From: Phytoactinopolyspora halotolerans
GTDB lineage: Bacteria; Actinomycetota; Actinomycetes; Jiangellales; Jiangellaceae
Assembly: GCF_010550675.1 (NCBI RefSeq)
Contig: NZ_JAAGOA010000012.1
Location: 1 to 64,000, forward strand
Length of the DNA stretch: 64,000 nucleotides
Direction of reading: 5' to 3'
The position numbers and the translations under genes are program-made. Under the pieces are notes generated by a model. The model searched no databases. It was given only the letters and a program-made list of their open reading frames with translations, and was not told the origin of the DNA. Numbering within the stretch: position 1 is the first letter of the stretch; each line of letters opens with the position of its first letter. This document shows, in pieces, positions 34,984 through 55,131 of the stretch.

Positions 34984-35081
34984 GGTCATGTTCGGACAGC
35001 CGGCTACCCTCTGGGCCGGCCACACGTTCGCGTCCTCGGATGGGCGTCGGCGATGTGAACGCTCAGCTCTACGATAGGGCC

Positions 35082-35949: not shown

Positions 35950-35975
35950 ACGGCGTTCGCATCATCGAACGCCGT
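35950..35975 (+). promoter_or_regulatory. Leader hairpin/operator upstream of PL7
   Basis: ACGGCGTTCG (35950-35959) is repeated perfectly in inverse at 35966-35975 around CATCAT. It lies in the predicted untranslated leader, 24 bases before the ATG, and could be an mRNA hairpin or a second operator. Confidence 0.6.
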
Positions 35976-35998
35976 CGACGATCGAGAGGGTGAGCTGG

Positions 35999-38778: not shown

Positions 38779-38784
38779 GCCGGG

Positions 38785-38821
38785 CCGCATCGGCCGGACT
38801 ACCCGGGTCCGGCCGATGCGG
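38785..38821. terminator. 15-bp perfect hairpin between convergent genes
   Basis: CCGCATCGGCCGGAC (38785-38799) pairs perfectly with 38807-38821 around a seven-base loop. It lies seven bases after the beta-helix stop, and includes the stop codon and last codons of the convergent isomerase gene, so it can terminate both. Confidence 0.8.
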
Positions 38822-39629
38822 TAGCGGCCAGCCAGTCGCGGACCGCGGCGAGTGCGTCGCGAGCCTCCGGGAGGTCGGGGTGCCACGCCTTCTCCCATTC
38901 GAGGCTCAGCACACCCGCGTACCGGCGCCGATCAAGGACGCCGGTGATCTCGCCGAGCGGGACGTGCCCGGTGCCGGGCAGGACGGGCTCAGGGCGGCCG
39001 TCGGCGAGCACCGCGTCCTTGACCTGGACGTAGGCCAGTAGGCCGTCCAGCGACGCCGCGCTGGCCTCGGGCGATTCGCCGGCGGCCCAGCTGTGGACGA
39101 TGTCCCAGATGGCTCCGATGTACCGAGGATGATCGCCGGCCACATCCTGCACGAGTGGCGCCACCAGGCGCGCGACGTCTTCGCCGGTGCGGTGGCTGTC
39201 ATGGGTCTCCACCAGCAGCCGGACGCCGGAGTCCGCGGCTGTCGGGACGGCGGCCTCCAACCGGCGCCGTCCGCGTTCTTCCGCGACGGCGCCGGCGTCA
39301 TTCTCCGCGCCGGGGAACAACCGCACGCCGCCGGCACCCAGGTCGGCCGCTAGCCGCACGTGCTCGGTGATGTCGTCCACGACCGCGTCGTCGTCCCCCG
39401 CAGCGCACAGCTTGACGTACGAGCACACCGCGAGCACGCCCAGACCTGCTTCGTCGAGGCACCCGCGGAGTTCCGCCCGCTCGGCGGACGACATGCCGAC
39501 GTGCGCCAGCTGGCCCTCTCCAGCCCGCAACTCGAGTGCCACGCAACCTGCCGACGCCGCGACATCGATCACCTCGCCGATCAGGGCGCCGGGCATACCC
39601 AGGGTCGAGACGGCAAGCGGCCACGTCAT
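38799..39629 (-). CDS. Sugar phosphate isomerase/epimerase family protein
   Basis: A 276-residue TIM barrel of the xylose-isomerase-like family (PF01261). Visible metal-site segments are LLVETHDSHRTGEDVARL, AIWDIVHSW and YVQVKDAVL, with the final LSLEWEKAWHPDLPEA. The start is ATG 39629, which gives MTWPLAVSTLGMP. It converges on the lyase genes through a shared terminator and lies downstream of a toxin-antitoxin-like pair. An isomerase or epimerase of this family is common in uronate catabolic loci, which suggests processing of unsaturated uronates or related keto sugars; no substrate can be assigned. Confidence 0.88.
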   Translation of the reverse strand: MTWPLAVSTLGMPGALIGEVIDVAASAGCVALELRAGEGQLAHVGMSSAERAELRGCLDEAGLGVLAVCSYVKLCAAGDDDAVVDDITEHVRLAADLGAGGVRLFPGAENDAGAVAEERGRRRLEAAVPTAADSGVRLLVETHDSHRTGEDVARLVAPLVQDVAGDHPRYIGAIWDIVHSWAAGESPEASAASLDGLLAYVQVKDAVLADGRPEPVLPGTGHVPLGEITGVLDRRRYAGVLSLEWEKAWHPDLPEARDALAAVRDWLAATASAGPG

Positions 39630-39636
39630 GACGTGG

Positions 39637-39903
39637 TCACTTCTTCTCGGTTCTGGCATGGAACTTGCGGTGAGCCGCCTGCCGCGAGGTGCCCAACACA
39701 GTACCGATCGCCTCCCACGAATCCCCGGCTGCACGGGCATCTGCAACAGCCTGATCGAGCGCTCGCTCCGCCTCCTCCAGATTGGCGAGTGCTTGGCCGA
39801 TAGCCCTCAGATGACGTGCGTCGCGCGCAGGCGTAACCTCCGGGTCGAGGGTGTCCAACCATTCCTCGACGCTGCTCTTATGCTGTGCCTTGGCCATCAT
39901 CAT
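39637..39903 (-). CDS. Small helix-turn-helix protein, candidate antitoxin
   Basis: An 88-residue protein with a long acidic helix (LRAIGQALANLEEAERALDQ) and a C-terminal helix-turn-helix of the type SWEAIGTVLGTSRQAAHRKF, as in sigma-region-4-like or Xre-like domains. The first of three tandem ATG codons (39903) overlaps the stop of the upstream gene (TGATG); the third (39897) is best spaced from AAAGGG, so the exact start may be 0, 1 or 2 codons later. Paired with a small RelE/BrnT-like protein under one operator-covered promoter, it is probably the DNA-binding antitoxin. It could also be a plain regulator. Confidence 0.7.
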   Translation of the reverse strand: MMMAKAQHKSSVEEWLDTLDPEVTPARDARHLRAIGQALANLEEAERALDQAVADARAAGDSWEAIGTVLGTSRQAAHRKFHARTEKK

Positions 39904-40353: not shown

Positions 40354-43300
40354 TCACTCCGGCAGGAGCTCACGAAGCTCACCATCCCCGTCCACCGATG
40401 CCGGCTCGGACGGCGCGGACTCTCCCACGGCGTTCGACGCCACGACGACGTACTCCGCGCCGTCCACCACTTCGGAATCCGTCCACGTCGTCGCGGTCAC
40501 ATCGGTGACCACGACCTCGCCGTCCCGCAGCACCGTGTACGACGCGGCCAGCCGGCTGCCGGACCAGGACACGGTCACCTCGTCCCCCTCCGATGCCGCT
40601 GCCACCGAGGTCACCGTCTCGGGCGCGGCTGGTTCGCCCGCCCCGTCGCCGCATTCCGGCCGCGCCGGCAGCGTCCACGTGCCGGAGAACCGCACCTCGT
40701 CCGGGATGCTGTCGTCCGGATAGACGACGAACCGGTCCACCAGCGCACCGTCTTCCCTCGCCTTGATCAGCAGCGTGTGGAAGCCGGGCTGCAGATCGAA
40801 CCCGATCGGCGACTGCCGGTAGAACCAGTCCCCGACGCTGAGGTTCACCGTCGCCGGAGTGCTGTTGTCCATCGAGATGTAGACGCTGTCCGTGGACCCG
40901 GACTCGCCATGGCCGAGCACCGCCACGTGGTAACGCCCGGCCTCCGTGACCTCCAGGTCGTAGCGGCCCCACAGGTCGGGGTTGTTCTTGTACTCCGAGC
41001 CCCGCGGCACCGACGCGACCCGTCCGCCATAGCGGGTCAGGTCGTCCACGAGCTGGTACTCGCCGCTGCGGCCGCTGTACCGCTCGGCCTCGACGACGGC
41101 GCCGTCCGCGCCGACCTCGTGCGTGAGGGAGCACCCGGGTACACCACTGACGGTGGACGACGGCTCGCTCGCTCCGGCGTCGTTGACGGCGACGACCCGG
41201 TAGGTATAGCCGGAGCCGTCCTCGACGTCGTCGTCGGTCCACGTCGTGGCGCTGATCCCGTCCGCGACGACCTCGGCGTCGTCATCGGTGAGCCCGCCGC
41301 GCAGTACATGGTAACTCTCTGCTCTAGCCGAACCGTCCCAGGTCAGCGTGACCTCACCGGCCGCACGGCTCACTCGCACCCCATCCGGCGTCCCGGGAGG
41401 AGTGGTCTGCGGCGTCGCCTCCACGACGCCGGAGAGCGGGCCCGTGCCGATCTGATTGACCGCGCGGACCGCGTACCGGTACGTGATGCCGTTCGACACA
41501 TCCGTGTCGACCCAGCCCGGCTCGGTGACGCCCTCGGCGACGGGCTGCAGCTCGGCGTCACCGGTGGCCCGCAGCACGTCGTATGACGACGCGTCCCGCA
41601 CCGGCAGCCAGCCGAGCTCCACCCGCCGATGCGAGGCCACGGCCACCAGGCCGTCCGGCGCGGCCGGCTCCTGCGCGCCCGCGGTACCGATCGCGGCGGA
41701 CGACGGCCGGCTCCGGCCGACCTCGTTCACAGCCACGACGCGGTACGGATACGCTTCGCCGTCGGACAGGTCCCGGTCCGCGTAGAACGGGACGGCGACC
41801 TCCGCGATCTCCCGGCCGCGCCGCAACACCCGGTAGGACGTGGCCGTGTCCACCGGCTCCCACGACACCTCGATCACTCCGGCGTGACCCTGCGCCGTGA
41901 CGCCCGACGGCGCCGCAGGTGCGGCGTGCGGAGCTCCGTACTTCAGAACCAGCTCGCCGCCGCCGCTCACTTCGACGCTCACGCGGCCGTCCGCGAGGTC
42001 CACCGGCACCGCGGATCCGTCCAGCGTCGCCCGCTCCAGCGCCCGGCCGGGCGACGCCGCCAGCGACAGCTCGTAGGAGGTGTCCGGACCGTCGGCGATC
42101 TCGACCGTATGACGGGTCGGGTCGCTGACGTCGGCGGAGAGCGTCACCGACGCCGACGACGACGCCAGCACGGTGCCCCGCCACGAGACGGCGACGGCGT
42201 CGTGCATGGCGTATCCCGCCAGCGCACCGCCGGTGGTCCGCACCCAGCCCAGGGCGCCGTCGACCACGACGTCTCCCGCTGCCGCGGTCGAGCCGGAGCG
42301 TGCCGCCACCACCGTGTCGACGTAGTCGTCGGCGGAGATCCGCGCTGCCAGCGCATCCGCGGTACCGAGGTCCTCCAGCCGCGGCTCCGCATCGTCGAGG
42401 CCGGCCGGCACCAGCACGGACAGCAGGTCCGCGGACGTGCCTTCCTGGCTCAGCCGCAGGCCGGTCGTCTCCTCCACGTCGGTAGACGGGTCCGGGTAAC
42501 CCTCGAAACCGGTGTCCGTGCCGGTGCCGTACGGGTTGAACCGGTCGGTCACCAGCGTCGTCTCGACGTCGGCGGGCACGGTCAGCGCGTGCAGCCGCGC
42601 GGGGTCACCCCAGGGGCCGTCGCCCGTGGTCCAGGTGCGACGGTTGGCGACGCCGGAGAGGGTGCCGCGCACGTGCCAGTAGGCGTCCCACTCCTTCGAG
42701 CTCTCGGCCGCCATCCGGTCGAGCACCACGAAGTAGTCCGAGCCGGGGAACGCCACCGCACGGGTATGCGTCGCGTCCTGGTCGTCCCAGTACGCCGCCG
42801 ACTTCTCGGCGAAGCCGAACATCGGGCCGGAGAGGAACCCGCGGGTGGGCGTCGGGTCACCCACCGCCGAGCCGTCGGCGGTCACCACGTTGTGGTGCTC
42901 GGGGCCCTTCCATCCGTCGCGACCGCCGAACCGCTGCGGTCCGTAGCCGTTGTCCCGGGCGAGCACCGCGTTCTCCGCGTCGATGAGCAGCTGCAGGCCG
43001 TCGGCGTGGTCGTGGTTGTTGCTCATCGCCACGCCGCTGAAGTATCCCCAGCGGGTGTCGGCGTCGCCCATCCGCCAGTCGCTGCGGAAGATCGTGTCCC
43101 CGCCGCGCGGGCCGGCGTCCATATCGATGGTGCCGGTGCCCTCGTCCGGGGCCACCTCGGCGATGGTGGAGTCGTAGAGTGCTATCTCCTCCGGCCAGCC
43201 GTAGAACTGGTTGCGCGCTCCCGTCCAGTCGTCCGGGTACCGGGCCGCATTCCAGTCGCTGTTGAAGAACTGCCACTGGAACAGCTCGCCCAGACTCGCC

Positions 43301-44319
43301 GACTCGCTGAGCGGCGTCGGCGTGTCCGCGTACGCGGCCGCGACCGTGTTCAACCAGGTCACCTTGGACCAGCCGTCGTCCAGCGGCGGCATCAGGCCCT
43401 TCGGATTGACGGTCTTCAGCTGCCACTCGAACGCCGGCTGCAGGGCCGGGAAGAGATCGACGCCGGAGGCGTTGCGGTACTGCCACATGAACGGCGTGCT
43501 GTTGAGGATGGTGAAGATCCAGTAATACCCGGCGCCGTCCCGATAGATGCCGTCCTTGGTGAACATGTAGCGGAAGACCCGGTTCATGTTCTCCAGCCCG
43601 CGGTCCAGGTACGCCTGCGCGTCCGGGTCAGCCGAGAAGGCCAGCGCCCAGGAACCCAGCGCCGCGCCCGCCTTGGACCGGTGGTTGTGGCTGCGCACCC
43701 CCTCGTCCTCCAGGTACGTGTACAGCCAGTCCGCGCCGCGTTTCACCGCCGCCCGGATCGCCGCGTCGTCGTCCGGACCGATATCGGCCGCGATCCAGTC
43801 GTAGGCGAGCGCGTAGTTGGTCATCTGCTGGGCGACGTACTGGTCGGTGGGCACGATCGTGTCGAACGCGGCGCGCAGGTTCGCCACCGCCGCGTCGAGA
43901 TACCGCTGCTCCCGGGTGATCAGCCAGGCGAACGACGTCGCCTTGGCCGCCTTGGTCTTGACGTCGTCGGCCGGGTCGACACCGTCCGCGGCCGCTGCCG
44001 CGTCGGCGTCCTCCACCAGGCGTCCCCACGCCATCGCGTAATGCCGGTGCGGGTCGGGTGCGTCGCCGCTCACCCGGGCGCGCAGGAGTTCGACGCCGTC
44101 GGTGTCGACATACTGGCTCGGGTGCACCTCCTGCGGCGGAAGGACACCCTCGGTCGGGATGGTGATCCCTTCCCACCATTCCTCGTCCGGGTCGTGACCG
44201 ACCGACTCCCCCGGCACCAGCGGCGGACTGGCCGCCTGCAGCGGCGCCGCCAGCGCGCCCGCGACGAGCACCGCCGCGAGGCCGGCCACTACCGAATGAA
44301 CCGTTCTTCGCCGAGACAT
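40354..44319 (-). CDS. Secreted heparinase II/III-type lyase with fibronectin III domains
   Basis: A 1321-residue exported multidomain protein. The signal peptide is residues 1 to about 29. An alpha/alpha-toroid lyase domain (about 60-390) and a beta-sandwich (about 395-790) follow; the heparinase II/III-type site is SNNHDHADGLQLL with His436, and DGIYRDGAGYYW is in the toroid. FnIII domains occupy about 800-885, 885-970 and 975-1060; a CBM35-like domain (VVEAERYSGRSGEYQLVDD) about 1070-1200; and a last FnIII about 1230-1310. The ATG has GGGAG six bases upstream. It is the last gene of the leftward lyase operon. It probably depolymerises a uronate polysaccharide outside the cell (PL15/17/21-like); the subfamily is not resolved. 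Confidence 0.87.
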   Translation of the reverse strand: MSRRRTVHSVVAGLAAVLVAGALAAPLQAASPPLVPGESVGHDPDEEWWEGITIPTEGVLPPQEVHPSQYVDTDGVELLRARVSGDAPDPHRHYAMAWGRLVEDADAAAAADGVDPADDVKTKAAKATSFAWLITREQRYLDAAVANLRAAFDTIVPTDQYVAQQMTNYALAYDWIAADIGPDDDAAIRAAVKRGADWLYTYLEDEGVRSHNHRSKAGAALGSWALAFSADPDAQAYLDRGLENMNRVFRYMFTKDGIYRDGAGYYWIFTILNSTPFMWQYRNASGVDLFPALQPAFEWQLKTVNPKGLMPPLDDGWSKVTWLNTVAAAYADTPTPLSESASLGELFQWQFFNSDWNAARYPDDWTGARNQFYGWPEEIALYDSTIAEVAPDEGTGTIDMDAGPRGGDTIFRSDWRMGDADTRWGYFSGVAMSNNHDHADGLQLLIDAENAVLARDNGYGPQRFGGRDGWKGPEHHNVVTADGSAVGDPTPTRGFLSGPMFGFAEKSAAYWDDQDATHTRAVAFPGSDYFVVLDRMAAESSKEWDAYWHVRGTLSGVANRRTWTTGDGPWGDPARLHALTVPADVETTLVTDRFNPYGTGTDTGFEGYPDPSTDVEETTGLRLSQEGTSADLLSVLVPAGLDDAEPRLEDLGTADALAARISADDYVDTVVAARSGSTAAAGDVVVDGALGWVRTTGGALAGYAMHDAVAVSWRGTVLASSSASVTLSADVSDPTRHTVEIADGPDTSYELSLAASPGRALERATLDGSAVPVDLADGRVSVEVSGGGELVLKYGAPHAAPAAPSGVTAQGHAGVIEVSWEPVDTATSYRVLRRGREIAEVAVPFYADRDLSDGEAYPYRVVAVNEVGRSRPSSAAIGTAGAQEPAAPDGLVAVASHRRVELGWLPVRDASSYDVLRATGDAELQPVAEGVTEPGWVDTDVSNGITYRYAVRAVNQIGTGPLSGVVEATPQTTPPGTPDGVRVSRAAGEVTLTWDGSARAESYHVLRGGLTDDDAEVVADGISATTWTDDDVEDGSGYTYRVVAVNDAGASEPSSTVSGVPGCSLTHEVGADGAVVEAERYSGRSGEYQLVDDLTRYGGRVASVPRGSEYKNNPDLWGRYDLEVTEAGRYHVAVLGHGESGSTDSVYISMDNSTPATVNLSVGDWFYRQSPIGFDLQPGFHTLLIKAREDGALVDRFVVYPDDSIPDEVRFSGTWTLPARPECGDGAGEPAAPETVTSVAAASEGDEVTVSWSGSRLAASYTVLRDGEVVVTDVTATTWTDSEVVDGAEYVVVASNAVGESAPSEPASVDGDGELRELLPE

Positions 44320-44390
44320 GGATCGCTCCCATCATGTGGTGAACGGGTTGTCGTACGTCTGGTGCAGGTGTCGTAGATGCGGTGCAGGCG

Positions 44391-45074
44391 TCATGCGGAT
44401 GGAGCCCGTCGAAGGCGCCCTTCCGGTCGAAGGCGGCGCCGGGCCGGATGCTCTCGTTGATCCGCCGCCGTACCGGCGCCGTTCCCGGTGGCGACGAGGG
44501 CAAGCCAGACGGGAAGGGAGATGCCGAGGAAGGGCACGATCGTGGGAAGCAGCACGCACGTCAGTCCGAAAGCCGCGACGATCGACAGCAGGACCAGCGA
44601 GCTGATCGGGCGCTGGGCGCCTAGGGCCACCACCGCACGCAGCCATTGAGCCGTCGTCGCGTCCCGATCCCGCGACGCGGCGGCCGGAAGCATCAGCGCC
44701 AGCAGCAACAGCGCGCCCGCCACCGGGAGCATCGCCGTGGCCAGCAGGAAGGCCGCCGGCGATTCTCGGGTGCCCAGGAACAGCAGGTTCACCAGCACCA
44801 TCGCGGCCAACACGGTGGCGACGACGCTGAGCAGCCAGGTCCGGCGCCAGGTCGCCGCCATCTCGCGGAAGGTCTGCGTGAACACGGCGTCGTCGCCGTG
44901 TTCCTGCCAGCGGTGCAGCGCCCTTCCTGCCGCCACCGCGGCGGAGAGCCAGGTCACCACCCCGAGCGACAGGATGAACGCCGCGACTCCCGCCAGCGCG
45001 AGGTTGGCCGGGTAGGACAGGACCGCCAGCGCGGTGTCCTCCCAGCGTCGCCGCCGCACCTCGGTGCCGTTCAC
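44391..45074 (-). CDS. YesL/DUF624-family membrane protein
   Basis: A 227-residue membrane protein with about five hydrophobic segments and the YesL-type central region (RALHRWQEHGDDAVFTQTFREM followed by TWLLSVVATVLAAMV). Family members occur in polysaccharide-use operons such as the Bacillus rhamnogalacturonan cluster, where their function is unknown. The GTG at 45074 overlaps the stop of the upstream lyase gene (GTGA), so it is coupled to it. It lies between two lyase genes in the operon, which supports a role in the same transport or export pathway. Confidence 0.82.
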   Translation of the reverse strand: MNGTEVRRRRWEDTALAVLSYPANLALAGVAAFILSLGVVTWLSAAVAAGRALHRWQEHGDDAVFTQTFREMAATWRRTWLLSVVATVLAAMVLVNLLFLGTRESPAAFLLATAMLPVAGALLLLALMLPAAASRDRDATTAQWLRAVVALGAQRPISSLVLLSIVAAFGLTCVLLPTIVPFLGISLPVWLALVATGNGAGTAADQREHPARRRLRPEGRLRRAPSA

Positions 45075-47086
45075 GACCGTGGGCCGTTCCCGGCCGGGTA
45101 CGCCGCCACGGAATACGCCGCGAACCCGTCCGCGGCGATGTCCGGTTCGGCGCCCAGCGCGTCGGTGGCGTCCTTCCCGTCCAGCTGGACGGCGACGATC
45201 TCCCGATCGCCGTCGCGCTCCACGTCGACGACGACGCTGCGTGCGCCGTCCCCCTCCCGGACGCTGATCACCGACGGCGCGTCGTCGTCCCACGCGAGCG
45301 GCTCCAGCACCGTGACGAACCGGGCGCGTTCCCAGGGCCCGGTGGTACGGCGCAGGGTGTGCTGCACCTTCTCCAGGGAAAGGCTCGGCGTGCTGGACGT
45401 CGGGTTCGCCGCGATCGGGGTCGCCACCACCTCGTCGTCGGTGTCACCGGGTTCGAGCGCGGTGACGCGCAGCCGACCCGATCCGGCGGCGGCGATCCAC
45501 TGCCCGTCGCCGACCGGCTCGGCCGGATTGTCGGTCTGCAGCAGCCACGTCCAGGCCCGCGGCACCTCGGCGGCGGACTCGTCGACGATCACCAGCGTGC
45601 CGCGCGGCGACATCACCAGATGCCGATCCACCTGGCGTACCCCCAGCTCCGGCTCGTACATCGCGGCCGTTTCGCTGACCGCGTGCACCCAGCCGTCGCC
45701 CACCGTCGCGGTGCGGATGCGGGCGGTGTGCCGGTGCGGCAACCCCTTGTAGACGTGGTAGCGGTCCTCGTTGACGAACCCCTTGCCGTCGACGAGCACC
45801 GAGCTGTGATGAGCGGTGAGCTTGCGGTTGGAGTAACCTTCGTCGACCGCCAGGTACGCGCCGTGACCGAGCAGCACGAAACTGCCCGCGTCCGGATGGT
45901 GGTGACCGGCGTTGAGCGTGGTCCACCCCTGCTCGACGGCCATCCGGTGCGACGCCTCCCACGCCTTGTGCCCGCCGCCCGGCGAGGCCTTGAACGACAC
46001 CAGACAGGCGTCCGGCGACCACGACGTGCGGCCGACCACCAACCCCAGATCGCCGAAGACGCGCCCCAGCGGCAACGATCCCGGGTCCTGTTCCGGCACC
46101 TCCGGGTCGTACCAGAGGAGCTCCTGGTACGCCTCCGGACGCACGCCCGGCTTGACCCCGCTCTCGTACGCCTCCCGCCAGAAGAAGTCGTCGAGCACCC
46201 GGTTGGCGAGCCACTGCGCCTGCGGGATCCGGTACTCCGCGGCGAGCTTGTAATAGAACGCGGCCGAATGTCCGCTGCGCCGGTCGTGGCAGTCCCCGTG
46301 GTCGACGATCCGTTCCAGATCTGGGGCGGCCTGGTAGAGCCGGTACCAGAACGTCTCCCGGAGATAGGGACTGTCGGCGAACCAGTCGAGTCCTTCGGCG
46401 GCGCGCAGCACGTCGAGGTATGAGGCGATCCACGGCACGCCGTAGCGCCAGTACACGACGCCCTCGCAGTTCGAACCGTCCTCGGGCAGCAACTCCAGCA
46501 CGGTGGCGAAGTTGCGCTTGGCCCGCTCCGTCCACTCCCTACCGGGCGGATGCTCGTCGACCAGGACGTATCCGGCGGTAGCCAGCCCGGCATAACAGAT
46601 CCAGTTGTGGTTCTGCCAGTACGACGAGGACCACCAGTCACCCTCGGAGGCGACGGCGAAGTCATAGAGCCGGGTGCCCTGCAGGATGAGCTTGTCGCGC
46701 AGCGCGGCGCGCTCGTCGTCGGGAAGGGAGTCGCCGGCCCAGGCGTAGGCCAGTGACAGCCCGTGGCAGAGCCAGCCGGCGTCGAGGTCGTGGTCCGGCA
46801 TGTGCGCCTTGCCCCAGTGCGGGAAGGACACCGGCGGCGCCAGCCAGCGGCGCAGTTCGGCCAGGTAGTGCGTCTGTCCGGTCAGCCGGTACGCCAGCGC
46901 CAGGTTGGCCGCTGTGGGCCCGAAATAGGTGATGCTCGCCTGCGGATGTTCGGCCGGCGGGACTTCGCCGCGGTAGCGTTCGCATTCGTCCAGCAGCCGG
47001 CGGAACTGTCGCCGGTGCGTGGTGTGGACGTCGCTGCGCAGCTGATCGAGCCTTCCGGCAAGCAAGAGGGGGCGAGGGACGGTCAC
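45071..47086 (-). CDS. Heparinase II/III family protein (intracellular, 671 residues)
   Basis: A 671-residue protein without a signal peptide. The N-terminal half is an alpha/alpha toroid (YFGPTAANLALAYRLTGQTH, YWQNHNWICYAGLATAGY, WRYGVPWIASYLDVL), and the C-terminal half is a beta-sandwich with a His cluster, LNAGHHHPDAGSFVLLGHGA, at about residues 394-413. This is the layout of PL15/PL21-type exo-lyases. The GTG has GGAGGA directly upstream and overlaps the previous stop (GTGA). It probably converts imported unsaturated or intact uronate oligosaccharides to monomers in the cytoplasm. The sugar specificity cannot be read. Confidence 0.87.
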   Translation of the reverse strand: MTVPRPLLLAGRLDQLRSDVHTTHRRQFRRLLDECERYRGEVPPAEHPQASITYFGPTAANLALAYRLTGQTHYLAELRRWLAPPVSFPHWGKAHMPDHDLDAGWLCHGLSLAYAWAGDSLPDDERAALRDKLILQGTRLYDFAVASEGDWWSSSYWQNHNWICYAGLATAGYVLVDEHPPGREWTERAKRNFATVLELLPEDGSNCEGVVYWRYGVPWIASYLDVLRAAEGLDWFADSPYLRETFWYRLYQAAPDLERIVDHGDCHDRRSGHSAAFYYKLAAEYRIPQAQWLANRVLDDFFWREAYESGVKPGVRPEAYQELLWYDPEVPEQDPGSLPLGRVFGDLGLVVGRTSWSPDACLVSFKASPGGGHKAWEASHRMAVEQGWTTLNAGHHHPDAGSFVLLGHGAYLAVDEGYSNRKLTAHHSSVLVDGKGFVNEDRYHVYKGLPHRHTARIRTATVGDGWVHAVSETAAMYEPELGVRQVDRHLVMSPRGTLVIVDESAAEVPRAWTWLLQTDNPAEPVGDGQWIAAAGSGRLRVTALEPGDTDDEVVATPIAANPTSSTPSLSLEKVQHTLRRTTGPWERARFVTVLEPLAWDDDAPSVISVREGDGARSVVVDVERDGDREIVAVQLDGKDATDALGAEPDIAADGFAAYSVAAYPAGNGPRS

Positions 47087-48915
47087 GTGTCCTCCAGGGT
47101 GTGCTCGTCGATCCGGCCGGAACCGTGCTCCACCCGGAGGCGAGCCGGCCCGGTCTGGTCGGTGCTGATGAGTTCGATGCGGTGGACGGCTCCCGGGTCG
47201 CCCGGCCAGTAGACGGAGACGAAGGCCACCGCGGAACAGGTGGCGGAACAGGTCGCGGTCCAGTCGGCGACGGCGACGACGGCCGCGGGGTCGTCCGACG
47301 GTCCGCGGCCCGGGACGGTGGCCAGCGTGGACGGCGCCGTGGCGACGTGCCGGCCGTGCAGCACCGTGCCGCCGGTGTCCCAGCGGCTGCACCACGTCCC
47401 GTCCGGTTCGGTCCGGATGTCCAGCGTTCCGCCGGGCCGTAACCCGAGGTCGACGACGTGCTCCGCACCCGACGGCACCGTCACGCACACGGCGTCGAGC
47501 AGGTACTCGTCGTTCATGATCACCGCACGGCGCAGACCCGCGCCCGGAAAGGCGTCGTCGGCGCCGACCAGAAGACGAGCCGGCGGGCCGGGTTCCCACG
47601 CCAGCACCGTGCCGGTGCACGGCTGCTGGTCCGCGCCGTCGATGCGGACCGTCGGATGTGCGACGGTGCGTGTGTAGTGCCCGCGACGCAGCGGGCTGCC
47701 GTAGGGCGGGACGCCGGGGGCCGGCTGCCACGGTTCGTCCGCGCCGTACAGGTACAGCGCGAGCTTGTCCAGATGACCGTGCGAGCCACCGTGCGGCCCG
47801 GCGTCGACGACGGCCTGCCACGTGTCGGCCGGATCGCGCAGCACGACGGCACCCGTGCTCGCGTACCACACGGACCCACGTTCGGTGCCGATCCCCTCGT
47901 CCAGCGGTGGACCGGCGAACCAGCCGTCCAGCAGATCCTCCAGCCCGTCGTGCCGGTCACCCAGCTGCCGGCGGGCATACGCCTCGATCCACTCCACGCC
48001 CGGCGCCGTCCACAGTTGCCGGGCCAGCGCACACACCTCGATCAGCTCGAGCAGCGCGCCGTCCCGCCGGTACGGCCCGTCGTGCAGCACCGGGACCAGC
48101 CCGGCCGGCGTGGCCAGCGTGGTCAGCACCCGGACCATGCCGGCCAGCCGGGCCACGGCGTCGCCCGGAAGCTCGCGCGGGTCCTGGCCGGCCAGGTTGA
48201 GCAAGTGTGCCCGGAGCACGAACAGGTGGTAGTAGGTGGCGCCCTCCCACTCCCAGCCGTCCTCGCCGACGGCGGCCGCCAGCTGCTCGAACGCTCCCTT
48301 CAGCCATGGCCCCGCGTCGACCGGCTCGCCGAGCGCGTGCAACGCCCGCGCCGCCATCCCGCCCGCGCAGTCCAGCCACGCGGTGTAGTTGCTGCGCAGA
48401 TCACCCCGTTCGTCCACGAGGACCCGGCGAGCCTCGTGCACCGTGGACATCAGCCCACGGAGCAGGTCGACGGTGTCGTCGCGCAGCCGCCCGCGCAGCG
48501 ATGGGTCGGCGGCGGCGAGCACCCGGACGGCGTCGGCGATCTGCGTGCCCCACAGCGCCTCGGTCAGGGCCTGGGAGAAGAGCTTGCCCCGCAGCATCCA
48601 GGGCTCGGCCTGCTCGCTCCACCCGTCCGCGGCCACCTGAGGGTAGAGCCGCCCGTAGGCGTCCAGGAGCTCCGACGCCCGGTCCCGGTCCGCCGCCTCC
48701 CCGCGGATCCGGTATCGGTGCGCGCGACGACGCAGCTCCCGCGCCTGCGCCTGATGTGCCAGCACCGTCCAGGCGGCGTCGTAGCGTGGACCGCTCATTC
48801 GGCATCCGTGCGGGCACGGATACCCGTCGCCCGTCGGCGGGCCGAGCTCGGTGCCGTGCGTCGGACAGACGTGGTCATGCCACCACCCGCCACGCGCCCA
48901 CGGAATCGGCGTCAT
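47083..48915 (-). CDS. Heparinase II/III family protein (610 residues)
   Basis: A 610-residue protein without a signal peptide. The N-terminus has a Cys/His pattern, C17-P-T-H20 and C34-P-H36-G-C38, common in this family and probably metal-binding. The toroid follows (YTAWLDCAGGMAARALHALG, WEGATYYHLFVLRAHLLNL), then the beta-sandwich with the active-site-like VVDAGPHGGSHGHLDKLALY at about residues 371-390. It differs clearly from the neighbouring 671-residue homologue, so the two are not recent duplicates and probably act on different linkages. Start and stop overlap the adjacent genes by four bases each. Confidence 0.87.
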   Translation of the reverse strand: MTPIPWARGGWWHDHVCPTHGTELGPPTGDGYPCPHGCRMSGPRYDAAWTVLAHQAQARELRRRAHRYRIRGEAADRDRASELLDAYGRLYPQVAADGWSEQAEPWMLRGKLFSQALTEALWGTQIADAVRVLAAADPSLRGRLRDDTVDLLRGLMSTVHEARRVLVDERGDLRSNYTAWLDCAGGMAARALHALGEPVDAGPWLKGAFEQLAAAVGEDGWEWEGATYYHLFVLRAHLLNLAGQDPRELPGDAVARLAGMVRVLTTLATPAGLVPVLHDGPYRRDGALLELIEVCALARQLWTAPGVEWIEAYARRQLGDRHDGLEDLLDGWFAGPPLDEGIGTERGSVWYASTGAVVLRDPADTWQAVVDAGPHGGSHGHLDKLALYLYGADEPWQPAPGVPPYGSPLRRGHYTRTVAHPTVRIDGADQQPCTGTVLAWEPGPPARLLVGADDAFPGAGLRRAVIMNDEYLLDAVCVTVPSGAEHVVDLGLRPGGTLDIRTEPDGTWCSRWDTGGTVLHGRHVATAPSTLATVPGRGPSDDPAAVVAVADWTATCSATCSAVAFVSVYWPGDPGAVHRIELISTDQTGPARLRVEHGSGRIDEHTLEDT

Positions 48916-49676
48916 CGGAACTGTGATCCTCCGTTGATGTCGATCACCTGGCCGGTGACGAAACCCGACAGCGACGACGCGAGGAACGCCACCACGCCGG
49001 CCACGTCGTCCGGCACCCCTTCCCGGCCGAGCGGGATGCCGGCCACGATGCCGGCCCGCGCCTCCGGCGAGGTGAACGTATCGTGAAACGCGGTCTGCCC
49101 GATGAACCCGGGGGCCACGGCGTTGACCGTGACACCGTCCGGCGCCAGCTCCTTGGCCAGGCCTCGGGCCAGGCCGATCACCGCGGCCTTGGCCGCCGCA
49201 TAACCGGCGGAACCGTTGCCGCCACCGTTCTCGGCCGCCATCGACGACATCATCACCACACGTCCGGCCTCGGATCGGGCCAGGTGCGGGATGGCCGCCC
49301 GCGTGGTCATGAAGGCGGTGGTGACGTTGACGTCCATGACCTTGGCCCAGTGTTCGTCGGACATCTGCGCGACGGTGCTGCGGCCCACCAGGTGCCCGGC
49401 GTTGGTGACCAGGATGTCCAGCCCGTCCAGCGCGTCGACGGTTCCGGCGACCACGGCGTTCGCGTCGGAGGCCGCGGTCAGGTCGCCGGGCAGGGCGACG
49501 GCGCGCCGGCCGCTGTCGAGGATCTCCTTGGCCAGCGTCTCGGCACCGTCCTTGCTGGAGGCGTAATGGACGGCGACGTCCGCGCCACCGGCGGCGAGGG
49601 CTCTGGCGATCGCCAGGCCGATGCCGCTGCCGCCACCGGTGACCAAGGCGCGCCGTCCGGTCAGATCGAGTTGCAT
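48912..49676 (-). CDS. SDR-family oxidoreductase (lyase locus)
   Basis: A 254-residue classical SDR. The cofactor motif is VTGGGSGIGLAIA at about residues 12-24, then TNAGHLVG, and the catalytic Tyr/Lys in GYAAAKAAVIGL; the end is GQVIDINGGSQF. The ATG at 49676 with AGAGGAC upstream is chosen; the frame is open upstream but without a good site. In an operon of uronate lyases it may reduce 4-deoxy-5-keto uronate (DEH reductase-like) or similar keto-deoxy sugars, as SDRs do in alginate metabolism. That role is inferred from context. Confidence 0.9.
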   Translation of the reverse strand: MQLDLTGRRALVTGGGSGIGLAIARALAAGGADVAVHYASSKDGAETLAKEILDSGRRAVALPGDLTAASDANAVVAGTVDALDGLDILVTNAGHLVGRSTVAQMSDEHWAKVMDVNVTTAFMTTRAAIPHLARSEAGRVVMMSSMAAENGGGNGSAGYAAAKAAVIGLARGLAKELAPDGVTVNAVAPGFIGQTAFHDTFTSPEARAGIVAGIPLGREGVPDDVAGVVAFLASSLSGFVTGQVIDINGGSQFR

Positions 49677-49717
49677 AGTCCGTCCTCTCGGTTGGTGTTT
49701 CTGGTGCGTCGCCGGGC

Positions 49718-50623
49718 TCATTTGATGCCCGCGTTGGTGAAGCCCTGAATGAAGTACCGCTGCGCCACCAGGAAGAGCAGCACCATCGGGATCGTCGCCA
49801 AGGTGCTGCCGGCCATCAGGTAGGCCCACTGTGTCGTCTCCTCCTGGCGGAACACCGCCAGCCCGACCTGGATCACGCGCAGGTCGTCCCGGGTGGTCAC
49901 CAGCAACGGCCAGAGGAAGTTGTTCCAGCTGTCCTGGAAGGTGAGCAGGGCGACCGTGGCCAGGGCCGGTTTGATCAGCGGCGTGTAGACCTGTCCCCAG
50001 ATCCGGAACTCGCCCAGACCGTCGATGCGCGCCGCCTCCTCCAGCTCACGCGGCAGCGACAAGTAGAACTGCCGGAACAGGAAGATGGCGAACGGGCTCA
50101 GCCCGCCTGGGATGAGCAACGCCCACCAGGTGTTCAGCCAACCGCTGCCGCCCTGACCGAGGATGTCGTTGCCTCCGAACAGCGGCATGAACTTCACGAT
50201 CAGGAACTGCGGCACGATCTTGGTGTACGTGGGGATCATCAACATGGCGATGAAGCCCAGGAACACGAGCTCGCGGCCGCGGAACGGGATGCGCGCCAGC
50301 GCGTATCCCGCCATCGCGCCGAAGATCAAGGTGATGATCGTGTGGCCGGTGGCGATGATGAAGCTGTTCCGGAAGTAGGTGGCGAACGGTGCGGCGTCGA
50401 GCGCCTCGGCATAGTTGCTCCACGCCCACTCCTTCGGCCAGAACGTCGGCGGGAACTCGATGAGTTCGCCCGGACCCTTCACCGAGGTGAGGATCATCCA
50501 CAGGAACGGCACGATCATGGTGAACGCGCCGAACGCCAGCACGCAGGTCAGGGCGATGCGCTTGCCGTCGAACCGTCGTTTGACCGGAGACGCCGCAGTG
50601 GTCTGCGTCATGGCCGCACTCAC
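49718..50623 (-). CDS. Carbohydrate ABC transporter permease, MalG-like
   Basis: A 301-residue permease with six predicted helices; the EAA loop reads ELEEAARIDGLGEFRIWGQV and the end is FIQGFTNAGIK, typical of MalG/UgpE. The GTG at 50623 has GGAGG nine bases upstream and overlaps the stop of the MalF-type gene (GTGA). It is the third gene of the lyase operon. With the adjacent permease and binding protein it imports the oligosaccharide products of the secreted lyases. There is no ATPase in the operon. Confidence 0.93.
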   Translation of the reverse strand: MSAAMTQTTAASPVKRRFDGKRIALTCVLAFGAFTMIVPFLWMILTSVKGPGELIEFPPTFWPKEWAWSNYAEALDAAPFATYFRNSFIIATGHTIITLIFGAMAGYALARIPFRGRELVFLGFIAMLMIPTYTKIVPQFLIVKFMPLFGGNDILGQGGSGWLNTWWALLIPGGLSPFAIFLFRQFYLSLPRELEEAARIDGLGEFRIWGQVYTPLIKPALATVALLTFQDSWNNFLWPLLVTTRDDLRVIQVGLAVFRQEETTQWAYLMAGSTLATIPMVLLFLVAQRYFIQGFTNAGIK

Positions 50624-51570
50624 GTGTCGTCACCTCCGGTGAGCCGCCGGTTGACGACGGTCAGCACGATCAGGAAGGCGAACAGGACCACCGACTGCGC
50701 ACACGCCATGCCCATCCGGAAGTTCTGGAACGCGCTGCGGTAGACCTCGTAGGTCATCATGGTCGTCGCGTTCGCCGGGCCGCCGTCGGTCAGCACGTAG
50801 ATCTGGTCGAATACCTGGAACGCGCCGATGATCGAGACGACGAAGACGAAGAACGTGGCCGGTTTGAGCATCGGCAGCGTCACCGAGAAGAACTGCTGAA
50901 TCTTGGACGCTCCGTCGATGGAGGCCGCCTCGTACAGGTTGGGGTCGATGTTCTGCAGTGCCGCCAGGTAGATCAGCATCTTGATCCCGATCCCCTGCCA
51001 GATGCCGACGATGATCACCGACCACAGCGCCCAGTCCGGGTTGCCCAGCCACACCTGGCCGGGCAGCCCGACGATCGACAGCAGTCCGTTGAGCAGCCCG
51101 TACTGCGGGTTGTACATCCACAGCCACACCATCGCGATGGCGACGGTCGCGGTGACATGCGGAAGGAAGAACGCCGCCCGGTAGAGCGTGCGCCCGACGA
51201 TCCGCTGGTTCAGCAGCACGGCGATGACGACGGCGACGGCCATCGACACCGGGACGGTGAAGAAGGTGTAGACGATCGTGTTCCACGTGGCCTTGCGGAA
51301 CACGGCGTCGTTCCAGATCTCGATGTAGTTGTCCAGCCCGACCCACCGGGGCGCGCTGATCACGCGATAGTCGGTGAAACTGAGTACCAGCGTCGCCAGC
51401 ACCGGGATGGCGATCCAGAGGATGCTGTGGCCGAGTGCCGGCGCCACCATCAGCCAACCGGCCCGGCGCAACTTGCGCGACGCCGACGGGCGGCGCCGGG
51501 AGCGCCACCGCCGGGCGGTGGCGGGCTCGGAGCCGGCCACCGTGCCGGACGGTTTGGTCGTCATGGTCAT
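50620..51570 (-). CDS. Carbohydrate ABC transporter permease, MalF-like
   Basis: A 316-residue permease. A basic leader (residues 1-35) precedes six helices; the EAA loop is NLYEAASIDGASKIQQFFSV. The start is ATG 51570, two bases after the end of the binding-protein gene; there is only a weak ribosome site, so translation is probably coupled. It forms the channel with the MalG-like protein encoded next. Confidence 0.93.
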   Translation of the reverse strand: MTMTTKPSGTVAGSEPATARRWRSRRRPSASRKLRRAGWLMVAPALGHSILWIAIPVLATLVLSFTDYRVISAPRWVGLDNYIEIWNDAVFRKATWNTIVYTFFTVPVSMAVAVVIAVLLNQRIVGRTLYRAAFFLPHVTATVAIAMVWLWMYNPQYGLLNGLLSIVGLPGQVWLGNPDWALWSVIIVGIWQGIGIKMLIYLAALQNIDPNLYEAASIDGASKIQQFFSVTLPMLKPATFFVFVVSIIGAFQVFDQIYVLTDGGPANATTMMTYEVYRSAFQNFRMGMACAQSVVLFAFLIVLTVVNRRLTGGDDT

Positions 51571-51572
51571 GC

Positions 51573-52877
51573 CTACCGCGCCATTGCCTCGCGTGCTTCG
51601 CCGGCGAGATCGTCGAGCGCCTGCTGGGGCGTTTTCTCACCGAGCAGGGCCGCCTCGATCGCCGGGGTGAAGTCGCCCCGGATCTCCAGCCACTGCGGCA
51701 CGCCGCCTTCGCGCTGGGCGATCTCGAGGTTTTCCATCGCGAACTGGACCAGCGGGTTGTTCTGCACGTACTCGCTGTCGAGCAATTCGGTCCGCGCCGG
51801 GACGTTGCCGCGCTGTTCGTTGGCGCCGAGCGCCGCCTCCGGTCCGGTGAGGAACTCGACCAGTGCCGCGGCGGCCTCCGGATGATCGGAGCCGGCCGAG
51901 ACGGTGGCCAGCGTGCCGCCGAAGAACATGCCGGGTTCGCTGCCCGTGATCGTGAACGGCACGAGCTGGTCGGCCAGCTCCGGTGCGGCCTCCTGCAGCT
52001 GGATCCACAGGTTGTTGTGGCCTACCGCCATCGCCGCCCGGTCGTTGAGCAGCGGATGCACGTCGATGTCGGTGCTGGAGAAGCCGATGTCCTCCACGCG
52101 GTCCTCGTGCATCAGATCCACCAGGTACTGCAGCGCGGCGACGCCCTCGGGCGAGTTGAACGTCGGCTCGGTGAAGTCCTCGCTGAACAGTGAGCCGCCG
52201 TGGGCGAAGAGAAAGACCTCGTACATCTGGCGCAGATCCATCGAGAGCATGTCGAAGCCGGCGCGCTGGAGCTGACCGCCCGAGTCTCGCTCGGTGAGAG
52301 CGATCGCGTATTCGCGCAACTCCTCCAGCGAACTCGGCGGCTCGTCGAAACCGGCCTCGGCGAGCAGGTCCTTGCGGGCGATGCCGAACCGGGTGTCCAG
52401 CATGATCGGAATCGCGTAGAGGTCGTCCTGCCACACCCCGCCCGCGAGAATCTCCGGGGTGAAGTCCTCGGACAGGTCATCCACGGTGATTCCGAGTTCG
52501 CCGAGGTCGGCCAGGATCCCGTTCTCGGCGAAGGCCTCGATCCAGCCGACGCCCATCATCATCACGTCCGGCACCAAACCGCTGGCCACAGCGGTGGTGA
52601 GCTTCTCGTTGAGGCTGCCGTAGTCGGTGTAATCGACCGTCACGGTGACGTCGGGGTACTGCTCGTAGAACTGCGGAAGCAGTTCCTCTTCGAGCAGCGC
52701 CTTGCCCTCCGCGCCCTCGAAGATGGGCGTGAGGACGGTGAGCTCTCCGCTCACCTGCCCGTCGCCTGAACCGTTCTCGCTACTGGTCTCCGAGTCGTCG
52801 CCGCAGGCGGCGAGGACGAGTGAGGTCGTCGCGGCCGCGAGAAGCGCCGCCGCGCCTCGGCGTGTCCAAGATGTCAT
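51573..52877 (-). CDS. Sugar ABC transporter substrate-binding lipoprotein
   Basis: A 434-residue extracellular solute-binding protein (family 1). The signal peptide ends LVLAAC, with Cys25 as the lipid anchor. The mature protein begins after an acidic Ser/Gly linker and contains ELTVLTPIFEGAEGKALLEE, DVMMMGVGWIEAFAENGIL and GGTLATVSAGSDHPEAAAAL motifs of the family. The ATG has AAGGAG nine bases upstream. It is the first gene of the eight-gene lyase operon and is expressed from a promoter overlapped by a LacI-type operator. The ligand is presumably a uronate oligosaccharide. Confidence 0.93.
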   Translation of the reverse strand: MTSWTRRGAAALLAAATTSLVLAACGDDSETSSENGSGDGQVSGELTVLTPIFEGAEGKALLEEELLPQFYEQYPDVTVTVDYTDYGSLNEKLTTAVASGLVPDVMMMGVGWIEAFAENGILADLGELGITVDDLSEDFTPEILAGGVWQDDLYAIPIMLDTRFGIARKDLLAEAGFDEPPSSLEELREYAIALTERDSGGQLQRAGFDMLSMDLRQMYEVFLFAHGGSLFSEDFTEPTFNSPEGVAALQYLVDLMHEDRVEDIGFSSTDIDVHPLLNDRAAMAVGHNNLWIQLQEAAPELADQLVPFTITGSEPGMFFGGTLATVSAGSDHPEAAAALVEFLTGPEAALGANEQRGNVPARTELLDSEYVQNNPLVQFAMENLEIAQREGGVPQWLEIRGDFTPAIEAALLGEKTPQQALDDLAGEAREAMAR

Positions 52878-52928
52878 GCGCTGTGCTCCTTCCGAGGAGT
52901 CAACCGGCGATGTGCTGTATGCCGAGCT

Positions 52929-52974
52929 ACTGTAACGATGCAGTGACCCTAGGGGAGCATTTCCAGCACGTCAA
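52929..52974 (-). promoter_or_regulatory. Lyase-operon promoter with operator at the start site
   Basis: On the minus strand TTGACG (52974-52969) and TAGGGT (52951-52946) are 17 bases apart. Transcription would begin near 52939, inside the 16-bp imperfect palindrome ACTGTAACGATGCAGT (52929-52944), which has a central CG as in LacI-family operators. Confidence 0.75.
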
Positions 52975-53028
52975 TAGGGTGTTACTCGGAAGACAACCAT
53001 CTGCCCTGCTCGGAACGGTGGAATTGCT

Positions 53029-53044
53029 ACTGCATCGTTACACT
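53029..53044. promoter_or_regulatory. Second LacI-type operator, inverse copy
   Basis: ACTGCATCGTTACACT repeats the reverse complement of the 52929 operator with one difference; 14 bases are identical. The centres are exactly 100 bases apart. It lies in the promoter region of the divergent LacI gene and suggests autoregulation, possibly with DNA looping. Confidence 0.75.
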
Positions 53045-53089
53045 GATACGCTACGATCGCCCCTAGTCGACTAGCAGAAATCGGGTGCG

Positions 53090-54136
53090 ATGGCAGGCGT
53101 CACCATTCAGCACGTCGCTCAGGCCGCCGGTGTATCCCCCACCACGGTCTCCAATCTGCTGAACGGCAGGGCGAATCAGATGCTCCCCGAGACCCGGCAG
53201 CGCGTCGAAGCCGCCATCGAGCGGCTCGGCTACCGGCCGAACCGGGCCGCGCGGCACCTGCGCACCGGCCGGTCCCGAACCGTCGGCCTGGTGGTGCCGT
53301 CCGTCGGCAACCCGTTCTGGGGCACGTTCGCCCGTTACCTCGAGGCTGCGGCCTTGACCGAGGGGTACAACGTGTTGCTCTGCAACAGCGAGCGCGACCC
53401 GGACCGGGAGCGGCGGTACGTCGAAGAGTTATGGTCGGACGGCGTCCAGGGTGTGGTGCTGTGCTCGTCGCTGCCGTCGCTGGAGCACGTCATGCCGCTG
53501 ATGGACCGGGGCCTGCAGATCGTCGCCTTCGACCGGGCCGCCCAAGCCAACGACGCCGACTCGCTGGTCAGCATCAGCATCGACAACGCCGTCGGCAGCC
53601 AGCTGGCCACCACGCACCTCACCTCGCTGGGACACCGGCGGCTCGCCTTCGTCTCCGGTGCGCTCGGCAGTATCAACCGCAAGGAGCGCTACCGCGGATT
53701 CACGGCCGCCCTGGAACAGGCCGGGCTGTCCACCGAGAACACCCTCTGGCCGGGTGCGTCCGGCGAGCAGTTCGGCGACGTCGAGACGGCCGAACTGGGT
53801 CGCCGCGCCGCACGCGAGCTGCTGGCGACCGACGATCCGCCCACCGGGATCGTCGCCATCAACGACATGTGCGCGCTCGGGGTCTGCCGGGGTGTCCGCG
53901 ACGCGGGACTGGAGGTCGCCAAGGACGTCTCGGTCGTCGGATTCGACGACATCGTCCTCGCCGACCTCTACGATCCGCCCCTCACCACGGTCCGCCAGCC
54001 GATGCCGGAGATGGCCAAGGCGGCGATCGCCGAACTGAAATCGCGGGTCGAGGGCCCCGGCACCGGCCAGGGCCGCTCCCTTCTCCTGCGCCCGGAACTC
54101 GTGGTGCGCCAGTCGAGCGCTCCCCCACGGGGCTGA
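53090..54136 (+). CDS. LacI-family transcriptional regulator (lyase operon)
   Basis: A 348-residue LacI regulator. The helix-turn-helix IQHVAQAAGVSPTTVSNLLN is at residues 5-24, the hinge is NRAARHLRTGRSRTVGLVVP, and the sugar domain ends VSVVGFDDIVLADLYDPPLTT. It is divergent from the lyase operon, and two near-identical inverse operators lie over the two promoters. The inferred role is repression of the operon and itself until a uronate oligosaccharide or breakdown product binds. The ribosome site is weak, in keeping with low-level expression. Confidence 0.93.
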   Translation: MAGVTIQHVAQAAGVSPTTVSNLLNGRANQMLPETRQRVEAAIERLGYRPNRAARHLRTGRSRTVGLVVPSVGNPFWGTFARYLEAAALTEGYNVLLCNSERDPDRERRYVEELWSDGVQGVVLCSSLPSLEHVMPLMDRGLQIVAFDRAAQANDADSLVSISIDNAVGSQLATTHLTSLGHRRLAFVSGALGSINRKERYRGFTAALEQAGLSTENTLWPGASGEQFGDVETAELGRRAARELLATDDPPTGIVAINDMCALGVCRGVRDAGLEVAKDVSVVGFDDIVLADLYDPPLTTVRQPMPEMAKAAIAELKSRVEGPGTGQGRSLLLRPELVVRQSSAPPRG

Positions 54137-54871: not shown

Positions 54872-55131
54872 CGGCTTCCACTCCTCGATCGACCGGGTCG
54901 TCGGGGCCGGTGATGGCTCGCGTACCCACCGGACGCCCGGCCGAAACGGCCCACCGGCCCTCGAACGTGACTGCCCGAGTCGGCCCATAGTCAGCCCGTC
55001 GTCCGCCCGCGGTGCGCCTGCACCCTTTCACCGATGCGACCGCCGCCGTTCATTGCCGGGACAACTTTCACCGTCTATGGTCTAGATCACTCCGGAATGG
55101 GTCCATTCAGGCAAGGACGAGGTGAGCTGAC

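Follow-up and report, generated by a model that had tools for sequence, protein, structure and literature searches.

A probable alginate utilisation locus in the actinomycete Phytoactinopolyspora halotolerans

Introduction

Which polysaccharide is served by a gene cluster of Phytoactinopolyspora halotolerans that combines a sugar importer with three heparinase II/III-like proteins? The cluster lies in a 64,000-nucleotide stretch of contig NZ_JAAGOA010000012.1 (the window) and consists of eight leftward genes (40354-52877, minus strand) with a divergent LacI-family gene (53090-54136). The eight genes encode, in order, a lipoprotein solute-binding protein (SBP), two permeases, a short-chain dehydrogenase/reductase (SDR), two cytoplasmic proteins here called P0003 and P0002, a small membrane protein and the secreted protein P0001. 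A first-pass annotation, made from the letters alone, had named these genes, all of which we confirm at their positions, and had proposed a pathway of secreted cleavage, import, cytoplasmic exolytic cleavage and keto-sugar reduction in which only the substrate was missing. This outline fits the families found here, and the missing substrate is, judged from P0001 and its neighbours, most likely alginate. We hold with considerable confidence that the whole is a locus by which a Phytoactinopolyspora-like actinomycete utilises alginate, and the direct support for this reading comes from protein families, synteny, conserved residues and conserved operator-like sites.

Secreted enzymes and the substrate

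Alginate is indicated as the substrate because P0001, of the PL39 type (polysaccharide lyase family 39), and the neighbouring PL7 and CBM32 (carbohydrate-binding module family 32) proteins all point there. Residues 47-795 of P0001 align to residues 4-769 of 6jp4, the PL39 lyase Dp0100 of Defluviitalea phaphyphila, over 749 residues (E ~3e-98), thereby covering its whole catalytic domain, and in a PDB search up to E 1 the catalytic part matched three Dp0100 sequences and nothing else. By hand count, N212, H213, Y265 and H436 of P0001 align with N186, H187, Y239 and H405 of Dp0100, the four residues given as catalytic for PL39 (Asn186, His187, Tyr239 and His405; Table 4 of PMC12088678). On this sequence evidence P0001 is predicted to be a PL39-type alginate lyase. 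Its C-terminal part, scanned piecewise, contains three fn3 units (two above the Pfam cut-off, one below), one GH115_C-like sandwich and, at the end, a piece whose single match, below cut-off, is the beta-sheet domain of RGI_lyase; the four FnIII domains first reported are thus about right, but the count is not clean. Dp0100 likewise carries fn3 units (PMC9971899). In contrast to Dp0100, on whose alginate-binding module the family CBM96 was founded (PMC9971899), P0001 gave no CBM96 match in domain scans; in a related operon (L018), a CBM96 was found on a beta-helix gene inside the operon.

The first-pass annotation started the locus at 40354 and overlooked two further genes beyond that end. The PL7 protein scores 152.5 bits against Alginate_lyase2 (curated cut-off 29.7), has the polyguluronate lyase 1uai as its best match (E 1.4e-94) and begins with a signal-like N-terminus, as read by eye. 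The following gene, whose start overlaps the PL7 stop, encodes a protein with a CBM32, whose five best matches (E 7e-24 to 2e-22) are all alginate-lyase/CBM32 entries, AlyQ among them, and a right-handed beta-helix; with a weak match to AlgE4 (E 3e-5), it is a putative alginate lyase or C5-epimerase.

Two cytoplasmic enzymes

Neither P0003 nor P0002 has an obvious signal peptide. Residue counts below refer to alignments of the window protein with the 35 P0003 or 34 P0002 homologues left after thinning at 80% identity; the homologues number 74 for P0003 and 84 for P0002, those of loci L016-L019 included and the cut P0003 of L111 dropped.

As a single sequence, P0003 matches PL17 slightly (E 0.001, PDB). 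Searched as a profile of 36 sequences, it finds PL17 alginate lyases first (8bdd, 9irq, Alg17C) and PL12 next, the match to 8bdd (E 5.9e-22) running across profile positions 61-482 and thus through the toroid and beta-sheet domains, and its alignment meets a PL17-like set from Defluviitalea, Halolactibacillus and Clostridium with an hhalign probability of 99.2. The AlphaFold2 model (pLDDT 93) superposes in VIA-align on PL17 4ok2 with Z 26.8 and rmsd 3.5 over 529. N176, Y177, Y228, Y229, H379, H381 and Y414 are invariant in 36 of 36 sequences, and Y228/Y229 and Y414 align with Tyr residues of 8bdd. In the column of residue 399, an Asp that seems to align with a PL17 metal ligand gives way to Ala in 16 of 36 sequences, the window protein among them. 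P0003 thus resembles the PL17 lyases Alg17C, BoPL17 and AlgL17 in profile, fold and the Asn and Tyr positions, and differs from them in its slight single-sequence similarity and in a Tyr for the His of an Asn-His pair (see below). Its family resemblance makes it a probable oligo-alginate exolyase. Residues 17-38 hold a Cys-x2-His ... Cys-x3-Cys motif, looking like a small zinc site, each place of which is kept in 34 to 36 of the 36 sequences. The PL17-like proteins of Firmicutes and Ilyobacter start with a similar Cys-containing stretch.

For P0002, the best PDB match of the single sequence is human dermatan sulfate epimerase 1 (DS-epi1; E 8e-16). The profile also places DS-epi1 first (E 1.4e-36), followed by a PL15 oligo-alginate lyase (E 3e-34), and for the model (pLDDT 91.5) DS-epi1 ranks first in Foldseek and reaches Z 35.0 in VIA-align (rmsd 2.9 over 626 residues; next row Z 31.9). 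Identity with P0002 in the structure alignments is 18% for DS-epi1 and 22% for PL15 Atu3025. By hand count, H159, Y211, H394 and Y417 align with His205, Tyr261, His450 and Tyr473 of DS-epi1, while H396, D414 and H426 would fall on its metal ligands His452, Glu470 and Asn481. One of these ligands is identical, and at the other two P0002 has a different residue that is also of a ligand type (Asp instead of Glu, His instead of Asn). None of the seven P0002 positions varies among the 35 sequences. These P0002 numbers leave out the initiator, and DS-epi1 numbering equals chain index + 22, an inferred offset with which all seven named residues fit their letters. By hand count, H159, Y211 and H394 align also with His311, Tyr365 and His531 of Atu3025, whose fold P0002 shares as well, whereas its neutraliser Arg314 is not kept (I162 in P0002, Ile in 35 of 35); the PL15 enzyme exoHep has Asn336 in place of this Arg (PMC12088678). 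Unlike DS-epi1, P0002 is bacterial and encoded in a catabolic operon, and we regard it as probably an oligo-alginate exolyase, with an epimerase as the alternative. One observation stands apart: bacterial relatives could not be identified from the DS-epi1 sequence alone according to PMC8006597, in contrast to the clear match that P0002, one bacterial sequence, makes with the human protein.

In the epimerase alternative, P0002 would be a DS-epi1-type C5-epimerase turning guluronate (G) into mannuronate (M), or back, in imported oligosaccharides, with P0003 finishing the work. DS-epi1 is the best match on all four counts given above, H159, Y211 and Y417 align with its residues His205, Tyr261 and Tyr473, small active-site changes are argued to separate lyases from epimerases (PMC8006597), and most identified PL17 enzymes are poly-M-specific (PMC12336832). 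However, DS-epi1-type residues also occur in heparinase II and PL15 (PMC8006597), so the aligned residues cannot tell lyase from epimerase, and a PL15 alginate lyase is nearly as close to the P0002 profile. We consider the epimerase function unlikely, if the strongest of the alternatives; it is compatible with alginate and competes with the lyase role of P0002 alone, so that its chances overlap those of the alginate locus. A shade less probable is its wider form, in which P0002 and its orthologues are catabolic C5-epimerases interconverting guluronate and mannuronate, and the animal epimerase descended from, or shares an ancestor with, an alginate-catabolic enzyme. If P0002 were such an epimerase, one M-preferring exolyase would gain access to the whole alginate polymer.

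Import, reduction and the proposed pathway

The SBP is a probable binder of alginate oligosaccharides. The operon has two permease genes of the CUT1 type and no ATPase gene; the genome has four open reading frames (ORFs) with an OB_MalK match. The label YesL-like, given at first to the small membrane protein (44391-45074), is weak, because its matches to DUF624 (E 0.009 with the longer ORF; 16.6 of a cut-off of 24.2) and to MusI_fam (E 5e-4; 19.9 of 160) both lie under the curated cut-offs. A counterpart stands at the same place in 66 whole loci, and the protein is possibly an accessory subunit of the importer.

The SDR matches the 4-deoxy-L-erythro-5-hexoseulose uronate (DEH) reductase A1-R' with E 2e-44, the eighth by E-value of 166 PDB sequences, and is by this similarity a probable DEH reductase. 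For the later steps, a 2-keto-3-deoxygluconate (KDG) kinase-like gene and two 2-keto-3-deoxy-6-phosphogluconate (KDPG) aldolase genes are clustered away from the locus (C11:102445-105932); the kinase-like protein is 40% identical to the PfkB beside operon L018.

We propose the following route, for which we infer the catalytic activities, the transport substrate, the repressor action and the inducer: (i) the PL39 and PL7 enzymes and probably the CBM32 beta-helix protein would be secreted and cut alginate to unsaturated oligosaccharides; (ii) the lipoprotein SBP and the two permeases would import these, energised by a shared MalK/MsiK-type ATPase encoded elsewhere and perhaps aided by the YesL/MusI-like protein; (iii) PL17-like P0003 and PL15/DS-epi1-like P0002 would split them to the unsaturated monomer, which yields DEH; (iv) the SDR would reduce DEH to KDG; (v) KDG kinase and KDPG aldolase would feed the Entner-Doudoroff route. 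Transcription of the unit would be repressed by the divergent LacI protein through two operators between the divergent genes. In Sphingomonas A1, too, binding proteins and ATP-binding cassette (ABC) permeases import alginate, by a pit/ABC importer, before cytoplasmic lyases act (PMC8286568). The present locus differs from that system and from the polysaccharide utilisation loci of Bacteroidetes in its Gram-positive host, the LacI gene beside the operon, the lack of an ATPase gene in it and the other lyase families.

Regulation

The stretch between the SBP and LacI genes contains a palindromic site twice. Its exact motif occurs at five sites in the 7.3-Mb genome, these two included, and a reversed control pattern at one. 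When the window was shuffled 100 times and one mismatch was allowed, two or more matches turned up in 20 cases; the window count alone is not striking, and the case for an operator therefore rests on position, genome count and related promoters. The exact motif is present in 31 of 68 related promoters and a looser form in 56 of 68, compared with none in 50 shuffles, which were mononucleotide shuffles only; the promoters that supplied the consensus are also those in which its matches were counted, so that these counts are not independent and the whole-genome count is the better check. The remaining genomic sites are two before a different LacI gene on C32 and one on C19, where the surrounding ORFs have no Pfam match. 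The pair on contig C32 (L123, about 6660-6720) consists of two TGCATCGATGCA sites, 44 bp apart, directly before that LacI gene.

Near the PL7 gene, the inverted repeat downstream of the IclR gene is possibly a second, putative operator, and the IclR-family regulator may have a KdgR-like role.

Conservation of the operon

A P0002 profile scan of named genomes gave 160 confirmed stretches, the best 80 of which were used (71 actinobacterial, 9 not), so that the following counts hold among close relatives; 66 and 71 exclude L016-L019, and L038/L039 are, judged by their length, the same contigs as L016/L017. In 66 of the 71 actinobacterial loci the seven genes from SBP to YesL-like protein follow one another in this order on a single strand, accompanied by a divergent LacI gene; the other five loci are cut by contig ends. 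P0003 occurs in 4 of 22 genomes of the order (own included) and in 2 of 5 of the genus; in a phylum sample, with at most three candidates scored per genome, it was strong in 3 of 396 genomes (own included), with four more at E 1e-4 to 9e-4.

The surroundings vary more. Within the fetched flanks of the 66 whole loci, tblastn found PL39 in 2, PL7 in 9, PL8 in 27, the CBM32 beta-helix type in 6, another beta-helix type in 38, AXE1-type esterases in 30, GDSL esterases in 25, major facilitator superfamily transporters in 15 and PfkB in 16. PL39, PL7 or PL8 is present in 38 of the 66, and these or the CBM32 beta-helix type in 43. As the PfkB neighbours are often only 34-41% identical, not every one need be a KDG kinase. 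On a Streptomyces plasmid, two genes with a PL7 annotation come after the module. Operon copies of Kribbella (L066, 13600-17518) and Streptomyces (L070, 14200-18195) continue with PL8, GDSL and AXE1-like esterases, the AXE1 label there coming from the look of the N-terminus and not from a Pfam call.

Outside the phylum, the alginate degrader D. phaphyphila has a P0002 relative (39%) adjoining a PL17-like gene, and the P0002 relatives of Clostridium and Halolactibacillus also stand beside PL17-like genes. The same species is the source of Dp0100, of its Alg1 system, and one 22-kb stretch (L116) holds, with these two genes, permease-like genes (23-25%) and an SDR gene (36%); it differs in that tblastn found no P0003, SBP, LacI, YesL or PL39 match there. 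Alginate genes of Firmicutes are described as scattered (PMC8286568), unlike this operon. The P0002 relative of Ilyobacter is next to a heparinase II/III gene, followed by cupin, SDR and KduD; this heparinase is 45% identical to the Defluviitalea one and, in a single comparison, 22% identical to P0003 over most of its length (E 2e-8).

Weighing the alternatives

Several results weigh against an alginate locus as proposed here. The nearest solved structure to P0002 is a glycosaminoglycan (GAG) epimerase and no lyase. The P0003 model is tied in VIA-align between PL17 and PL12 heparinase III (5jmd; Z 26.8 as for PL17, rmsd 5.3 over 504), and P0003 lacks the His kept by PL17 enzymes: the Asn-His pair that the family conserves at the +1 carboxylate (PMC12336832) reads Asn-Tyr throughout the 36 aligned sequences. 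The same pair is Asn-Ile in three Firmicutes PL17-like proteins, so the His position varies among relatives. The best PDB matches of the SDR are other dehydrogenases. The operator motif, with one mismatch allowed, is absent before the PL7 and PL39 genes, leaving no co-regulation link for both halves of the locus. PL39 lies near the operon in five examined genomes only (the window's, P. alkaliphila, G030, G096 and the metagenome-assembled genome L040), and 18 of the 66 whole loci have none of the searched endolyase or beta-helix types in their flanks by tblastn. The PL8 neighbours, all in Streptomyces or Kribbella, belong to a family of mixed hyaluronan, chondroitin and alginate lyases.

These PL8 proteins also bear on whether the locus really serves a different uronan (hyaluronan, chondroitin, heparosan or glucuronan), with the alginate lyases coincidental or side activities. 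P0002 is close to DS-epi1, PL35 GAG lyases and PL15 exo-heparinase, PL8 proteins accompany 27 whole loci, and PL35 enzymes act on several GAGs and once on alginate (PMC12088678). However, the PL39 and PL7 proteins of the window match alginate lyases very strongly, and among the window ORFs that were scanned there is no glycoside hydrolase catalytic domain, GH88 and hexosaminidase included, and no sulfatase. Aly16-1, a PL8 enzyme from Streptomyces, cleaves alginate with a preference for M (PMC11596371), whatever its kinship with these PL8 proteins, and a polymer made purely of uronates would suit the gene neighbourhoods in Defluviitalea and Ilyobacter. We therefore hold a different uronan to be improbable and retain alginate.

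Of the proteins first read as three lyases, P0001 is PL39 by sequence and P0003 PL17-like, and P0002, whose nearest solved relative is an epimerase, is no more than a probable lyase. The models of P0002 and P0003 match, near full length, structures of PL39, PL15, PL17, PL12 and PL21 in which an alpha/alpha-toroid is joined to an antiparallel beta-sheet (fold class: PMC12088678), in VIA-align rows that cover part of the PL families and leave an unlisted one possible, and P0001 takes its place there by sequence kinship with a PL39 structure; the three proteins are thus three families of one fold class. The earlier suggestion that three lyase folds serve a polymer with more than one linkage type is very improbable: three heparinase II/III-like proteins, each of a different family, are indeed present, but P0002 and P0003 share the fold class of the PL39 structure, and M and G residues plus a division into endo- and exo-action account better for three enzymes without a second linkage.

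Layout of the locus

The features are listed in Table 1. From the SBP gene leftward, the intergenic distances are +2, -4, +41, -4, -4, -4 and +71 nt, so that five of the seven are 2 nt or overlaps, as first described for the genes from SBP to YesL-like protein. P0002 starts with GTG at 47086, in a 4-nt overlap with the stop of P0003. Pfam supports the SBP, the permeases, the SDR, the heparinase II/III proteins and LacI.

Table 1. Features of the locus and its flanks, with window positions
Feature	Position	Strand	Evidence
IclR-family regulator, upstream of PL7 gene	35040..35855	+	Pfam IclR_C 6.5e-41
Inverted repeat, perfect 8-bp arms, 6-bp spacer, directly before PL7 gene	35952..35973		read from sequence, without chance estimate
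Secreted PL7 alginate lyase (predicted), 283 aa, polyguluronate-lyase-like	35999..36850	+	Pfam Alginate_lyase2 2e-44; PDB 1uai
Secreted CBM32 and right-handed beta-helix protein	36847..38778	+	Beta_helix 1.4e-24; F5_F8_type_C 2.4e-17
Xylose-isomerase-like TIM barrel ORF, between both halves of the locus	38799..39746	-	AP_endonuc_2 8e-32
P0001, 1321 residues, secreted PL39-type alginate lyase (predicted) with fn3 units and GH115_C-like domain	40354..44319	-	6jph/6jp4
YesL/MusI-like small membrane protein	44391..45074	-	DUF624 E 0.009; MusI_fam 5e-4
P0002, cytoplasmic DUF4962/heparinase II/III-like protein	45071..47086	-	nearest DS-epi1 and PL15
P0003, cytoplasmic PL17-like heparinase II/III protein, N-terminal Cys/His motif	47083..48915	-	profile, fold
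SDR reductase	48912..49676	-	Pfam (longer ORF); DEH reductase A1-R' E 2e-44
Sugar ABC permease, UgpE/MalG type	49718..50623	-	Pfam; below NCBIfam cut-offs
Sugar ABC permease, UgpA/MalF type	50620..51570	-	Pfam; below NCBIfam cut-offs
Lipoprotein SBP	51573..52877	-	SBP_bac_1 1.2e-40; lipobox-like LAAC
Putative LacI operator copy 1, TGYAWCGWTRCA	52931..52942		motif search
Putative LacI operator copy 2	53031..53042		motif search
LacI-family regulator, divergent	53090..54136	+	Pfam LacI, Peripla_BP_3

In the PL7 region, minus-strand ORFs at 35651-36883 and 36844-38898 were rejected as genes: neither matches Pfam at 1e-4, the plus-strand ORFs match strongly, and the BLAST matches of 36844-38898 are antisense of the beta-helix gene. 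A codon-position G+C heuristic also favours the plus strand at 35651-38898, and it is unreliable, having chosen a plus-strand ORF at 44646-45752 over the P0002 and YesL-like genes. The TIM barrel ORF has no tblastn counterpart at E 1e-6 across the 80 related loci. Beyond the LacI gene, one ORF (54152-54988) fuses a DUF2267 and a pterin-4a-carbinolamine dehydratase domain. The same genome has three more heparinase II/III-like genes, on C6 (L020), C26 (L021) and C10 (L022), in loci of a sugar type, respectively with Gfo/Idh and amidohydrolase genes, beside a family-5 SBP and near an ABC importer; they were set aside as parts of the locus on account of these other contexts.

Conclusions

A review (PMC8286568) reports users of alginate among Bacteroidetes, Proteobacteria and several Firmicutes; neither 'actinobacteria' nor 'streptomyces' appears in its main text. 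Titles and abstracts among the matches listed do not describe such an operon and report single actinobacterial lyases, a limited negative given that the subscription literature is largely uncovered; Phytoactinopolyspora together with alginate gave a single unrelated match. Alginate use itself is known, and what is less ordinary, and apparently undescribed, is the arrangement, its wide actinobacterial spread and the two divergent cytoplasmic enzymes. The system supplies two little-studied enzyme families, one of them close in sequence to a human epimerase, a closeness that makes the question of lyase versus epimerase directly testable for P0002. The esterases near many of the loci suggest that the source may be bacterial, often acetylated, alginate in soil or sediment. 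With the operon conserved in Jiangellales, Micrococcales, Streptomyces, Kribbella and others, alginate turnover would have a place among the actinomycetes of soil and sediment.

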